Shown piece after piece: positions 3,058 to 7,554 of a stretch of 8,809 bases of DNA. The stretch's first letter is position 1, and every line of letters starts with the position of its first letter. The notes beneath the pieces were generated by a model. The model made no database searches. It saw only the letters and a list, made by a program, of their open reading frames with translations, and was not told the DNA's origin. The DNA comes from Microcaldota archaeon (GTDB taxonomy: Archaea; Micrarchaeota; Micrarchaeia; Norongarragalinales; UBA8480): NCBI GenBank assembly GCA_023247085.1, contig JAHFHC010000030.1, positions 1 through 8,809 on the forward strand, given 5' to 3'. The position numbers were made by a program, and so were the translations under genes.

Positions 3058-3079
3058 ACTTTTGGCTTCTTTTTCTCTT

Positions 3080-4084
3080 ATGCACGTCTTATATCGCGAG
3101 GAAAGCAAAGTCGGCAAATCGCCTAGCGAACGCGGTATTGAAGAAGCGCTTGAATTTGGAGTTGTTTGTATTGACAAGCCACAAGGACCATCAAGCCACG
3201 AAGTAAGCGCTTTTGCGCGTAAAATTCTCAACATTGAAAAAACTGGCCACACTGGTACGCTGGATCCAAACGTATCTGGAGTTTTACCAGTGCTATTGAA
3301 CCAAAGCTGTAAAGCATCACACTTTCTTGGCAACACAACAAAAGAATACGTGTGCGAAATGCAACTTTCAAAACCAGTTGAACAAAAAAAACTAAATTCG
3401 GTTTTCAACAGGTTCAAAGGAAAAATTTATCAAAAGCCTCCACTTGCAAGCGCAGTTGCAAAAAATCTCCGTATACGCGAAACTTACGAATTGCAAATCC
3501 TAGAAGTGACTGGCGCAAGAGTATTATTCCGAGTAGCTTCAGAAGCGGGTTTTTACGTACGCAATCTTGTTTTCGATATTGGAGAAGTGCTTGGCGTAAA
3601 AACAGAAATGGCGGAACTTAGGCGAACACGCGCAAGTGGCTTAACAGAAAAACAAGCAGTCACCTTGCAAGAGCTATCTGACTACTACTGGCTTTGGAGA
3701 GAAAAAGGACGAGATGATTTGAAAAAATTCATAATCCCAATTGAAAACTTTATTGGATTGAAAAAAGTTATTGTGAGCGACGACTGCCTCAAGCCAATCT
3801 CAACCGGCGCAGACCTCGCCATTCCGGGAATTTTGTCCCTTGACGAAAAAATACAAAAAGGCGAACACGTTGGAATCTACACTGGCAAAGGAGAACTCGT
3901 TGCAGTCGCAACTGCCTTAATGTCATCCGTAGAAATTAAAAACAACAAAAAAGGAATAGCGTTCGACATCGATAGGGTAGTGCATGGTTTCAACGAAAAA
4001 ATGTTTCCGACAATAGCAAGTGAAAAGTCACTTGCAAAAGATTGGCTGGCTAAAGAGGATGAAAAAGCGTGGAAAAACCTGTAA
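3080..4084 (+). CDS. cbf5: tRNA/rRNA pseudouridine synthase Cbf5 (TruB family)
   Basis: Cbf5 is the catalytic subunit of the H/ACA ribonucleoprotein. It makes pseudouridine in rRNA under guide RNAs and can also act on U55 of tRNA. From the ATG at 3080 the product has 334 residues, the usual archaeal length. The catalytic motif GHTGTLDPNVSGVLPV sits at about residues 56-71, with D62 as nucleophile. IYQKPPLASAV at about 116-126 is the conserved tyrosine/proline motif. YVRNLVFDIGEVLGVKTEM at about 159-177 completes the active site. A C-terminal PUA domain is at about 230-310. An in-frame TTG at 3062 would add six residues. Neither start has a Shine-Dalgarno site, and ATG is preferred. The modified T-loop position lies in the arm that is split by introns in two tRNAs of this window. 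Confidence 0.94.
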   Translation: MHVLYREESKVGKSPSERGIEEALEFGVVCIDKPQGPSSHEVSAFARKILNIEKTGHTGTLDPNVSGVLPVLLNQSCKASHFLGNTTKEYVCEMQLSKPVEQKKLNSVFNRFKGKIYQKPPLASAVAKNLRIRETYELQILEVTGARVLFRVASEAGFYVRNLVFDIGEVLGVKTEMAELRRTRASGLTEKQAVTLQELSDYYWLWREKGRDDLKKFIIPIENFIGLKKVIVSDDCLKPISTGADLAIPGILSLDEKIQKGEHVGIYTGKGELVAVATALMSSVEIKNNKKGIAFDIDRVVHGFNEKMFPTIASEKSLAKDWLAKEDEKAWKNL

Positions 4085-4128
4085 AAGGCGAGACGGTGAA
4101 GTTTATAGGAAATACAAAGAACGTTTTA

Positions 4129-4155
4129 TCAAGGGCATCCTTAAACAATCCTTGA
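4129..4155 (+). repeat. Inverted repeat in the cbf5 to tRNA-Ser gap
   Basis: TCAAGG (4129-4134) is the exact complement of CCTTGA (4150-4155). A shorter alternative stem, AAGG/CCTT, shares the same bases. The loop holds GCATCCTT, also found in the small hairpin at 2179-2198. The gap (4085-4246) otherwise shows only AT-rich sequence and possible TATA boxes for the tRNA. Function unknown. Confidence 0.25.
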
Positions 4156-4197
4156 AACCGCTGAAATAATTTGGTGATTTCTAGTTCTAGCATAGGC

Positions 4198-4227: not shown

Positions 4228-4282
4228 CACTCTTGAAGCATGTTTTGCCGGGATGGCAGAGCGGTAATGCGCAGGCCTGGAA

Positions 4283-4347
4283 CATTTTCCAGTAGAGGAC
4301 CTAATTACAGTGACCGATTAATACGGTAGACTGCCCTGGCCTCAGAA
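4283..4347 (+). other. tRNA-Ser intron 1, canonical anticodon-loop position 37/38
   Basis: The splice junctions show a textbook bulge-helix-bulge. Exon CTGG (4277-4280) pairs with intron TCAG (4342-4345) to make the 4-bp central helix. It is flanked by 3-base bulges AAC (4281-4283) and AAA (4346-4348). Cutting after the second base of each bulge removes 65 bases and leaves a 7-base anticodon loop. Inside, CAGT/ACTG (4308-4311 with 4330-4333) and ACCG/CGGT (4313-4316 with 4324-4327) form a rod with a 7-base loop. CCAG/CTGG (4289-4292 with 4336-4339) closes it. No ORF. Confidence 0.85.
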
Positions 4348-4379
4348 AGCTTGTGCCCTAACGGGCTCCTGAGTTCGAA

Positions 4380-4497
4380 GAGAAACCCTTTTTTCTTTTA
4401 CGAAAAGAAAAAAGTCTTTCAGCCCAAAAAAAGAAAAAGGGTAATTTAGTTTTTGTTTACAGCGCGGGCTGCAATAGGAAAAGGGGTTTTTAGGAAT
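4380..4497 (+). other. tRNA-Ser intron 2, non-canonical T-loop intron (about position 59/60)
   Basis: The T-stem halves CTGAG and CTCAG are 125 bases apart, so about 118 bases interrupt the T loop. Exon TTC (4374-4376) pairs with intron GAA (4494-4496) as a relaxed central helix. AGAAACCC (4381-4388) then pairs with GGGTTTTT (4484-4491), one G-U, as the intron helix. Boundaries could shift by one or two bases because A and T flank both sites. The intron contains a perfect 12-bp oligo-T/oligo-A hairpin at 4388-4414. A second A-rich copy, ending AAAGAAAAAGGG at 4441, could pair with the first arm instead. No ORF. Confidence 0.8.
4388..4414 (+). repeat. Oligo-T/oligo-A hairpin, copy 1 (in tRNA-Ser intron 2)
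   Basis: The arm C-T6-C-T4 (4388-4399) pairs perfectly over 12 bp with A4-G-A6-G (4403-4414) around the 3-base loop ACG. The same design, T-run C T-run / A-run G A-run, recurs at 7080-7100 and 8420-8445. All three copies are in non-coding DNA. Confidence 0.7.
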
Positions 4498-4532
4498 TCT
4501 CAGTCCCGGCGCTTTTATTGATAGTGTAATTC

Positions 4533-5725: not shown

Positions 5726-6146
5726 CATGAGAATGAGACGCACAGGCACAGTTGCACCAAAAGAAGGCAAATGGGGAGTAGCTCATATTTATTCGTCTAA
5801 AAACAATACTATAATCACTGTAACTGACATCAGTGGCGCAGAGACAATCGCAGTTGCAAGCGGTGGCATGATCGTTAAAAACGACCGAGAAGAAGGAGGG
5901 CCATATGCAGCAATGCAAGCCGCTTTTAAAGCAAGCGAAAAATCAAAAGAACGCGGAGTAGTTGGCGTAATCGTACGCGTACGCGCTCCAGGTGGCCATG
6001 GCTCTAAAACTCCCGGTGTAGGTGCACAAGCAGCAATTCGCGCATTGGCACGCTCTGGCCTTCGCATAAGCAAAATTGAAGACGTTACTCCAATTCCAAC
6101 AGACACAACCAAGAGACCAGGCGGTAAACGCGGAAGAAGAGTCTAA
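5718..6146 (+). CDS. rps11: 30S ribosomal protein S11
   Basis: S11 is part of the platform of the small subunit near the E site and mRNA exit. The 142-residue product carries the family motifs [22 protein letters not shown] at about residues 19-40. [21 protein letters not shown] follows at about 49-69, and [21 protein letters not shown] at about 90-110. The C-terminus [11 protein letters not shown] is the conserved basic end. The start is TTG, backed by GGTGA six bases upstream, and the coding region overlaps rps4 by eight bases. The motif starts are offset by one residue at most in my count. Family and frame are certain. Confidence 0.95.
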
Positions 6147-6160
6147 GAAAATTCAAAAAA

Positions 6161-6170
6161 AAATATATAA
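6161..6170 (+). promoter_or_regulatory. Possible internal promoter (TATA box) before rpoD
   Basis: AAATATATAA lies in the 58-base gap between rps11 and rpoD, ending 34 bases before the rpoD ATG. Transcription would start about 10 bases before that ATG. The gap is very A-rich, so a chance match is possible. It would allow extra transcription of rpoD and the downstream tRNA-Leu. Confidence 0.4.
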
Positions 6171-6204
6171 TGATAAAACAAAAAAGGATCTGACAAAATT
6201 CACA

Positions 6205-6915
6205 ATGGCTGTTAAATTCGAAGAAATCAGAAAAACAAAAACCGGCGCGTATTACCACGTGACTGGCGCGTCAATTTCCCTACTTAACGCACTACGCAGA
6301 ATAGTTAACAGTAGCTTGCCAACCTTTGCAATTGATGAAGTCACCTTCTTTGAAAACAGCTCTGCATTATTCAATGAATATATCGCCCACCGGCTAGCGC
6401 TCATTCCACTTACGCTTGACGAAAACGCTGCACCAGACTTACAAGTTACCTTTTCACTTGAAGCAACTGGACCAACCGTAGTTTATTCAAAAGACTTGAA
6501 GTCAACCGACGAAAAAATCGCACCAGCTTCCACTCGTATTCCAATAATCGTACTCAACGAAAACCAGTCAATTCGCCTTGAAGCAACCGCAACAATGGGA
6601 ATTGCCCGACAACATGCAAAATTCCAAAACAGCCACGCTTCATACTCACATTACCCCAACGTAAAAATCAAAGGCTCCAAAACAGAAGCAATGAAAGTAT
6701 TGCCAAAAGGAACAGTTGATGAAAACGGCAAATTACTTCACCCAGAAAACCTTGACATTGACATATTATCAGACAACGTTTCGATAACGCCAGTAGAAGG
6801 AGAATACATCCTCTACATAGAGAGTTATAACGGCGAAGCGCCTGAACACGTATTAAACCGAGCTGTTTCAATTCTCAAACAAAAAACTGACGAATTGAAA
6901 ACAGAGCTCAAATAA
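6205..6915 (+). CDS. rpoD: DNA-directed RNA polymerase subunit D (Rpo3)
   Basis: This is archaeal subunit D, the counterpart of eukaryotic RPB3 and one half of the bacterial alpha dimer, not a sigma factor. With subunits L, N and P it forms the platform on which the polymerase assembles. From ATG 6205 it has 236 residues. The dimerisation motif LLNALRRIVNSSLPTFAIDEV is at about residues 26-46. The next stretch, EYIAHRLALIPL, is family-typical. MGIARQHAKFQNSHASY near the middle matches the conserved AKWQP-like strand. The C-terminus EAPEHVLNRAVSILKQKTDEL is the final helix. There is no cysteine at all, so the Fe-S cluster domain of some archaeal D subunits is absent. A longer in-frame reading reaches back into rps11 but is not supported. 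Confidence 0.94.
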   Translation: MAVKFEEIRKTKTGAYYHVTGASISLLNALRRIVNSSLPTFAIDEVTFFENSSALFNEYIAHRLALIPLTLDENAAPDLQVTFSLEATGPTVVYSKDLKSTDEKIAPASTRIPIIVLNENQSIRLEATATMGIARQHAKFQNSHASYSHYPNVKIKGSKTEAMKVLPKGTVDENGKLLHPENLDIDILSDNVSITPVEGEYILYIESYNGEAPEHVLNRAVSILKQKTDELKTELK

Positions 6916-6940
6916 TGCAGGGGTAGCAAAGCCAGGTCAA

Positions 6941-7025
6941 AATAATATGCAGATGAGTTGCCTGTCCTCAAATAACCGGTTAACTGGTTAACAACAGAAC
7001 AGCAGCGATTGCGTTTTTAGACTAA
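6941..7025 (+). other. tRNA-Leu intron 1, non-canonical D-loop intron
   Basis: Exon GGTC (6935-6938) pairs with GACT (7020-7023) in a 4-bp central helix, one G-U. It is flanked by two AAA bulges (6939-6941 and 7024-7026), a clear bulge-helix-bulge. Because both bulges are AAA, the cut can slide by up to three bases without changing the product. Length is 85 bases in every case. Inside, TAACCGG (6973-6979) and CTGGTTA (6984-6990) make a 7-bp hairpin with loop TTAA. GTTG-CTGT (6957-6965) and ACAGCAGC (6999-7006) extend it with one bulge. No ORF. Confidence 0.8.
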
Positions 7026-7072
7026 ATGCGCAGGATTGAGGTTCCTGTCCCGTATGGGTTCGAGAGTTCAAA

Positions 7073-7130
7073 AACGACCTTTTCTTTTAGAAAAAGAAAA
7101 CGTCGACGAAAAGAAAAAGATTTGAATCAA
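7073..7130 (+). other. tRNA-Leu intron 2, non-canonical T-loop intron (about position 59/60)
   Basis: TTCAAA (7067-7072) after the T stem pairs with TTTGAA (7121-7126), giving the central helix plus two more pairs. The 3' bulge is longer than the usual three bases. Splicing that leaves TTCAAA + T restores a normal 7-base T loop. The junction can slide by two bases because AA is on both sides; the length stays 58. The body of the intron is one oligo-T/oligo-A hairpin (7075-7105), followed by a second A-rich run like that in tRNA-Ser intron 2. No ORF. Confidence 0.78.
7075..7105 (+). repeat. Oligo-T/oligo-A hairpin, copy 2 (in tRNA-Leu intron 2)
   Basis: T4-C-T4 (7080-7088) pairs with A4-G-A4 (7092-7100) around the loop AGA. 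CGAC (7075-7078) pairs with GTCG (7102-7105) beyond a single C-C mismatch, for 13 bp in all. It is the same design as the hairpin in the tRNA-Ser T-loop intron. Confidence 0.7.
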
Positions 7131-7191
7131 TCTCTCCTCCTGCATTTACATGTTAAAATAGAAACAGAAAATAAATCAGACAGAAGCAAAT

Positions 7192-7203: not shown

Positions 7204-7554
7204 ATGGTTCAACGTGGCCCAACAAACATAACCTTGGCCAAATTAATATCAGGTTTAGAACAAGCAGCTAAGAAAAACAAAGCTCCAATTTGGAAACGCG
7301 CAGCTGAACTACTCTCCAGGCCAACACGCAAACGCGTAGAAGTAAACCTCGTCAAGTTAGGTAAATTAAGCGGGCAAGTGCTTGTTCCCGGCAAAGTACT
7401 GTCAGTTGGAGTTGGCTCAAAAGCAACAATCGCAGCATTTTCATTCTCGTCAAAAGCAAGAGAAAAAATCGCTAAAACTGGGGGAAAAACAATTTCAATC
7501 AAACAACTCATTGAAATGAACCCAACTGGCAAAAACGTCAAAATAATTATTTAA
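7204..7554 (+). CDS. rpl18e: 50S ribosomal protein L18e
   Basis: L18e is an archaeal/eukaryotic large-subunit protein related to bacterial L15. The 116-residue product has the expected length. It shows the family features TNITLAKLISGLEQAAKK at about residues 7-24 and IWKRAAELLSRPTRKRVEVNL at about 29-49. VLVPGKVLSVG lies at about 60-70, and the final strand-helix ending MNPTGKNVKIII. It follows tRNA-Leu by 59 bases, the same neighbour I recall in haloarchaea, and starts the L18e-L13-S9-RpoN segment. Confidence 0.94.
   Translation: MVQRGPTNITLAKLISGLEQAAKKNKAPIWKRAAELLSRPTRKRVEVNLVKLGKLSGQVLVPGKVLSVGVGSKATIAAFSFSSKAREKIAKTGGKTISIKQLIEMNPTGKNVKIII

Follow-up and report, generated by a model that had tools for sequence, protein, structure and literature searches.

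A micrarchaeotal tRNA-Leu(GAG) gene with introns in its D and T loops, the first of which carries a conserved guide-like RNA module

Genomic context and identity of the gene

The window analysed here, i. e., the whole stretch of 8,809 nucleotides, corresponds to a single contig (C8) of a genome of 892,562 bases in 36 contigs that is 92 % complete and whose relatives are Candidatus Micrarchaeota. Positions 6917–7143 of its forward strand, together with the discriminator A at 7144, harbor a tRNA-Leu(GAG) gene flanked by rpoD (6076–6915) on one side and rpl18e (7204–7554) on the other, and this gene order (rpoD, tRNA-Leu, rpl18e) is kept across the phylum. The gene is split into three exons, all on the forward strand: exon 1 (6917–6940) supplies the 5' strands of the acceptor and D stems as well as the D loop through GGTCAA; exon 2 (7026–7071) comprises the 3' strand of the D stem, the anticodon arm, the variable arm, the 5' strand of the T stem, and TTCAA; exon 3 (7130–7144) contributes the end of the T loop, the 3' strands of the T and acceptor stems, and the discriminator. 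Intron 1 (6941–7025) interrupts the D loop and intron 2 (7072–7129) the T loop, and their lengths of 85 and 58 nt are exactly those of the original prediction, which had furthermore described all stems as present, the anticodon loop as intact, no insert at the canonical site (37/38), and a tRNA of 85 bases after removal. All of this is borne out: the exons sum to 84 nt, or 85 with the discriminator, and ARAGORN calls tRNA-Leu(gag) once both inserts are deleted in silico.

In the raw sequence, neither ARAGORN nor the Rfam tRNA model reports any tRNA at 6917–7144, as had been anticipated for standard annotation, and the intron interruptions explain why the gene is invisible to it. A second, uninterrupted Leu(GAG) gene, named beforehand as the observation that would count against the prediction, is absent from the 11 tRNAs that RF00005 places above its cut-off in this 92 % complete genome. 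Uninterrupted Leu genes of relatives, used as positive control, score 49–55 bits with the same model, so that a second copy would be detectable unless it resides in the missing 8 %; the gene at 6917–7144 is thus the sole tRNA-Leu(GAG) gene detected in the genome. That it is a genuine gene with two introns can be regarded as very probable, since a chance match is difficult to reconcile with its placement between rpoD and rpl18e, with the 45 same-locus genes of relatives that likewise parse to tRNA-Leu, and with the inserts that many of these carry at matching points of the two loops. An Rfam STnc150 match elsewhere in the window (3987–4188) lies far under its cut-off and was rejected.

Splice sites and splicing endonuclease

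The D-loop junction consists of a 4-bp helix (GGTC/GACT) with an AAA bulge on each side, and the T-loop junction of a 4-bp helix (GTTC/GAAT) with 3-nt bulges AAA and CAA. With cut positions inferred from these bulges, excision would leave a mature D loop of AAGCCAGGTCAAA and a mature T loop of TTCAAAT. The D-loop site had been described as clean, and its GGTC/GACT helix between AAA bulges is indeed present; it is, however, not a strict bulge-helix-bulge (BHB) motif, and both sites are to be considered relaxed because their inner helices are weak.

A matching enzyme is encoded on another contig (C26), where endA is interrupted solely by an assembly gap of 10 N. The two EndA halves match the ARMAN-2 epsilon2 structures 4fz2/9w2k, one (E 7e-43) in the N-terminal unit of that endonuclease and the other (E 8e-83) in its catalytic and C-terminal units, with the catalytic triad of Tyr, His, and Lys retained in the alignment. 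By sequence, EndA is accordingly of the ARMAN-2-like epsilon2 type (an alphaN-alpha-betaC fusion), for which a broad substrate specificity has been described (PMC12397907, PMC6379350), and excision of both introns would therefore be expected. Both introns are thus presumably removed and the exons joined.

Intron states at the same locus in relatives

Among the 45 syntenic tRNA-Leu genes that were read in relatives, 12 are intron-free, 15 carry an insert in the D loop, 24 one in the T loop, and five one in the anticodon loop; D- and T-loop inserts without an anticodon insert co-occur in six, the window included. Several non-canonical introns per tRNA are, moreover, documented in other archaea (PMC4090602, PMC12397907), and the combination is hence not exceptional. 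The assessment as unusual in the original prediction consequently fits archaea at large, but not the micrarchaeotal group compared here. At the same locus of two relatives, G006 and G004, the anticodon GAG is replaced by AAG. Such A34 tRNAs would not be expected in archaea.

The T-loop intron and a dispersed repeat

Intron 2 contains a short repeat (7080–7116, forward strand) of the form TTTTCTTT-N-AAAGAAAA-N-AAAAGAAA. When searched as TTTTCTTT-N2-8-AAAGAAAA-N5-16-AAAAGAAA, it occurs 29 times in the own genome, as compared to a single match for the reversed control pattern, and it is present in 26 of 60 relatives. About ten copies, including the one in the window, lie within tRNA genes in sense orientation, and with one deletion placed around a copy, a tRNA was regained at 12 of the 31 places tried (some of these calls being doubtful) versus 1 of 95 control positions. 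This suggests that a mobile or copied element adds intron content; possibly, the repeat is itself mobile and colonizes, or even creates, tRNA introns. A similar process, intron transposition, has been proposed for Thermoproteales (PMC4090602). The repeat is enriched in tRNA introns, in sense orientation, and its linkers are often palindromic. One antisense copy lies immediately past endA and has the last ~28 bases of that gene on either side in near-identical form, reminiscent of a duplicated insertion site.

Other tRNA genes of the genome are interrupted as well. The tRNA-Ser(GGA) gene of the window (4247–4510, forward strand) contains two introns: a canonical one (about 4283–4347), whose first nucleotides are perfectly complementary to the anticodon loop, and one in the T loop (about 4379–4494); ARAGORN calls Ser(gga) with both removed. 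The genes for tRNA-Leu(UAG) and tRNA-Leu(CAG), on contigs C28 and C36, have intact D loops and an interrupted T arm, and their T-arm introns are almost identical despite differing anticodon arms.

A conserved RNA module within intron 1

The more notable feature of the gene, which the original prediction did not mention, is a conserved guide-like RNA module within intron 1. It is common to nine D-loop introns inserted at the GGTC^AAA site in four families (f1, f2, f3, and f5) of one order and comprises, from the outside inwards, a C-stem, a kink-turn-like motif, a stem of 8+2 layers, an internal loop, and an apical hairpin. In the window, where all elements are on the forward strand, the 5' side is built of the C-stem strand ATGCAG (6947–6952), the GA of the kink-turn-like motif (6955–6956), the 5' strand of the GA stem (6957–6965; GTTGCCTGT, with a single bulged C), and the first putative guide strand, CCUCAA (6966–6971). 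The apical hairpin (6973–6990; TAACCGG-TTAA-CTGGTTA) is followed by the second putative guide strand, ACAGA (6994–6998), the 3' strand of the GA stem (6999–7006; ACAGCAGC, of the 8-nt length common to the nine introns), and the 3' side of the kink-turn-like motif together with the closing C-stem strand (7007–7014; GA-TTGCGT). This module is predicted to fold stably as drawn.

Across the nine introns, the kink-turn-like motif takes the form NNU-GA facing GA, AA, UA, or AG, and the GA stem counts ten layers (8 bp and two G-A). The strands of the internal loop read [C/U]CUCA and ACAGR (with the variants GCAGA, ACAAG, AUAGG, and AAAGG), and CUCA as well as the distance of exactly 8 nt from ACAGR to the 3' GA, AA, UA, or AG of the kink-turn are kept in nine of nine. 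The sequences of the GA stem, in contrast, are almost wholly different between species, each strand pairing best with its own partner: own pairing amounts to 6.75 of 8 as compared to 4.48 across species, and only one of 40,320 permutations is as good, which amounts to a strong covariation. A kink-turn with a 3-nt bulge and a C-stem is found in six of the nine introns; the window deviates by a bulge of 2 nt, G013 by one of 5 nt, and G019 by the lack of a good C-stem. A covariance model of the module (R1), run on 60 genomes, matches the nine D-loop introns with E values of 6e-11 to 2e-5, and the next matches (from E 0.0015) read as protein-coding with no tRNA nearby and were discarded. Two further D-loop introns at the same site, in G007 (29 nt) and G015 (53 nt), lack the module, which is hence not required for splicing.

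Complementarity to the anticodon arm

The presumed target of the two internal loop strands is the anticodon arm of the very same tRNA, namely the anticodon loop and the 3' strand of its stem (7036–7048, forward strand), with tRNA positions 32–37 at 7036–7041, U38 at 7042, and 40–44 at 7044–7048. In the window, CCUCAA is the complement of positions 32–37 (UUGAGG), and ACAGA that of 41–44 (CUGU), the A facing C40 being unpaired. Over all nine introns, [C/U]CUCA(A) is complementary to 32–37 at six of six positions (including G-U) in eight introns and at five of six in G010, and ACAGR is complementary to positions 40–44 in 41 of 45 cells, position 40 being mismatched in three introns, the window among them. 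The ACAGR strand furthermore pairs with its own tRNA better than with permuted tRNAs (p 0.016), as illustrated by the matching partners ACAAG and CUUGU in G008 and GCAGA and UCUGU in G003. In eight of the nine introns, the two pairings leave U38-N39 free between them; G013 has C38 and nevertheless keeps the module. All features of this layout occur together in eight of the nine introns as compared to 0.05–1.6 % of dinucleotide shuffles, figures that are descriptive rather than independent p-values, as the criteria were written after viewing the sequences and the nine introns are homologous. A comparable U-containing target was encountered at only one other site in about 330 kb of own-genome DNA (both strands, overlapping loci). 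Among the three Leu isoacceptors that were read, U38 and a D-loop intron coincide in GAG alone (UAG has A38 and CAG G38), and most relatives have U38 but no such intron.

A putative guide for pseudouridylation of U38

Archaeal H/ACA guides pair with both sides of an unpaired UN dinucleotide, and their productive folds are marked by a spacing of ten layers between the pocket and the second of the G-A pairs in the kink-turn (PMC4652768). On this basis, the best-supported reading of the D-loop intron is that of an H/ACA-like guide for Psi38, a reading that we hold at slightly less than even odds. The topology is inverted, with the kink-turn side joined to the tRNA. An ACA/ANA box would be expected 14–16 nt from the pocket after an open lower stem; the open lower stem is absent, a closed apical hairpin takes the place of lower stem and box, and the nine introns contain no consistent ANA and none in a clear position. 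Without an assignable ACA/ANA box, the module is not assigned to the H/ACA family, although it would act like its members, and with a closed hairpin at the far end of its pocket it represents at best an inverted H/ACA-like RNA. Two more conventional assignments were rejected: an H/ACA RNA in normal reading direction would require a target 5'-CUGU-UN-UUGAGG that mismatches the tRNA and would have its kink-turn in the wrong stem, and a box C/D guide of the tRNA-Trp type would call for C (RUGAUGA) and D (CUGA) boxes with the guide placed upstream of D, but by sequence reading none of the nine introns has a CUGA beyond its guide strand, and only a conserved RUGA is present.

Psi38/39 is normally made by TruA (COG0101; PMC2584109). 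In 60 Micrarchaeota genomes, no TruA was retrieved with PF01416, and NCBIfam TIGR00071 gave no match over its cut-off and one weak partial match; as 2 of 14 control genomes (Sulfolobus acidocaldarius and Corynebacterium) were negative too, the sensitivity of this search is imperfect and non-detection is not proof of absence. The catalytic subunit of the H/ACA RNP, Cbf5, is encoded in the window itself (3062–4084, forward strand; TruB_N, DKCLD, and PUA domains), and Nop10 is present in the genome. Gar1 was not detected with PF04410, a weak model that also misses the control archaeon Sulfolobus, which renders this result uninformative.

Taken as a whole, the best explanation, to which we assign a probability of roughly 0.5, comprises a sole detected GAG gene, a spliced tRNA, an H/ACA-like guide for U38, and a lineage-variable T-loop intron. 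The transcript would be cut at the relaxed BHB sites in D and T loop by the epsilon2-type endonuclease and the exons joined. The D-loop intron would offer a kink-turn to L7Ae, a GA stem of ten layers, and the pocket strands [C/U]CUCA(A) and ACAGR, which may pair with positions 32–37 and 40–44 of the own tRNA either in cis, within the unspliced precursor, or in trans once splicing is complete, thus presenting U38 to Cbf5 for conversion to pseudouridine; the guide would thereby replace the TruA that went undetected in these genomes, and the T-loop intron would be a lineage-variable insertion with a dispersed short repeat. The more specific proposition that an inverted, ACA-less H/ACA guide has served the own U38 since the ancestor of the order because TruA was lost is put forward tentatively, as a scenario somewhat less probable than the best explanation given above. 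A tree of five neighboring proteins, in which deep nodes are weakly supported, is consistent with ancestral presence and losses, which does not amount to proof.

If correct, this would be the first pseudouridylation guide borne by a tRNA intron. tRNA introns could then bear guides of the H/ACA type and not just of the C/D type described so far, an inverted architecture that lacks the ACA box would be compatible with H/ACA function, and the replacement of a lost modification enzyme would provide a testable reason for the retention of archaeal tRNA introns.

Alternative explanations

The strongest competitor, albeit an unlikely one, holds that these are two ordinary non-canonical BHB introns and that the module merely aids folding or splicing, as an L7Ae-bound or self-stabilized hairpin with no guide function. 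Archaeal tRNAs with several introns are well known, the module is predicted to fold stably, and both the missing ACA box and the missing target U in G013 would come naturally. However, the D-loop introns of G007 and G015 manage at the same site without it, and folding alone predicts neither a complementarity that flanks U38-N39 nor the covariation with positions 40–44. Clearly less probable is that the pairing between intron and anticodon arm acts as a conformational switch or antisense element that opens the stem in the precursor and thereby delays maturation or exposes it to another modification enzyme: the perfect or near-perfect complementarity to 32–37 in all nine introns and the rarity of comparable targets in the own genome would agree with it, but the anticodon stem stays intact in the structure predicted for the complete pre-tRNA, and the kink-turn and the fixed stem of 8+2 layers would be left unexplained. 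A decayed or pseudogenized tRNA-Leu whose inserts are never removed might account for sites that are relaxed rather than strict BHB, but is highly improbable given the intact stems and anticodon, the lack of another detected copy, and a conserved locus with interchangeable intron states.

Comparison with known systems

The multi-intron tRNAs of Thermoproteales, for example, tRNA-Pro(UGG) of Pyrobaculum islandicum, likewise combine BHB-type introns in D, T, and anticodon arms, several per gene, with a broad-specificity endonuclease (PMC4090602); the present case differs in its micrarchaeotal origin with an epsilon2 enzyme, the lack of an anticodon intron, and the conserved guide-like module of the D-loop intron. 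An intron that guides modification within the anticodon arm of the tRNA it interrupts is known from tRNA-Trp of Haloferax volcanii and other Euryarchaeota, which, however, is of the box C/D type and directs 2'-O-methylation (Cm34 and Um39; PMC4090602), whereas the D-loop intron described here has an H/ACA-like layout and its presumed product is pseudouridine. With archaeal H/ACA sRNAs and the H/ACA-like RNAs of Pyrobaculum, it shares the kink-turn, the GA stem of ten layers, and an internal loop that, in eight of the nine introns, would pair with both sides of a UN dinucleotide, and the Pyrobaculum RNAs also do without a lower stem (PMC4652768, PMC7991803); unlike these, the module is inverted, closed by a hairpin at its far end, devoid of a clear ACA/ANA box, and located inside a tRNA intron. 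A precedent for the proposed function is Psi35 in tRNA-Tyr of Sulfolobales, where a guide RNA stands in for a missing stand-alone pseudouridine synthase of the anticodon arm (PMC4652768), there as a separate sRNA for position 35, here borne by an intron and presumably directed at position 38. Multiple non-canonical introns in archaeal tRNAs were thus already known; what is new is the conserved guide-like module in D-loop introns.
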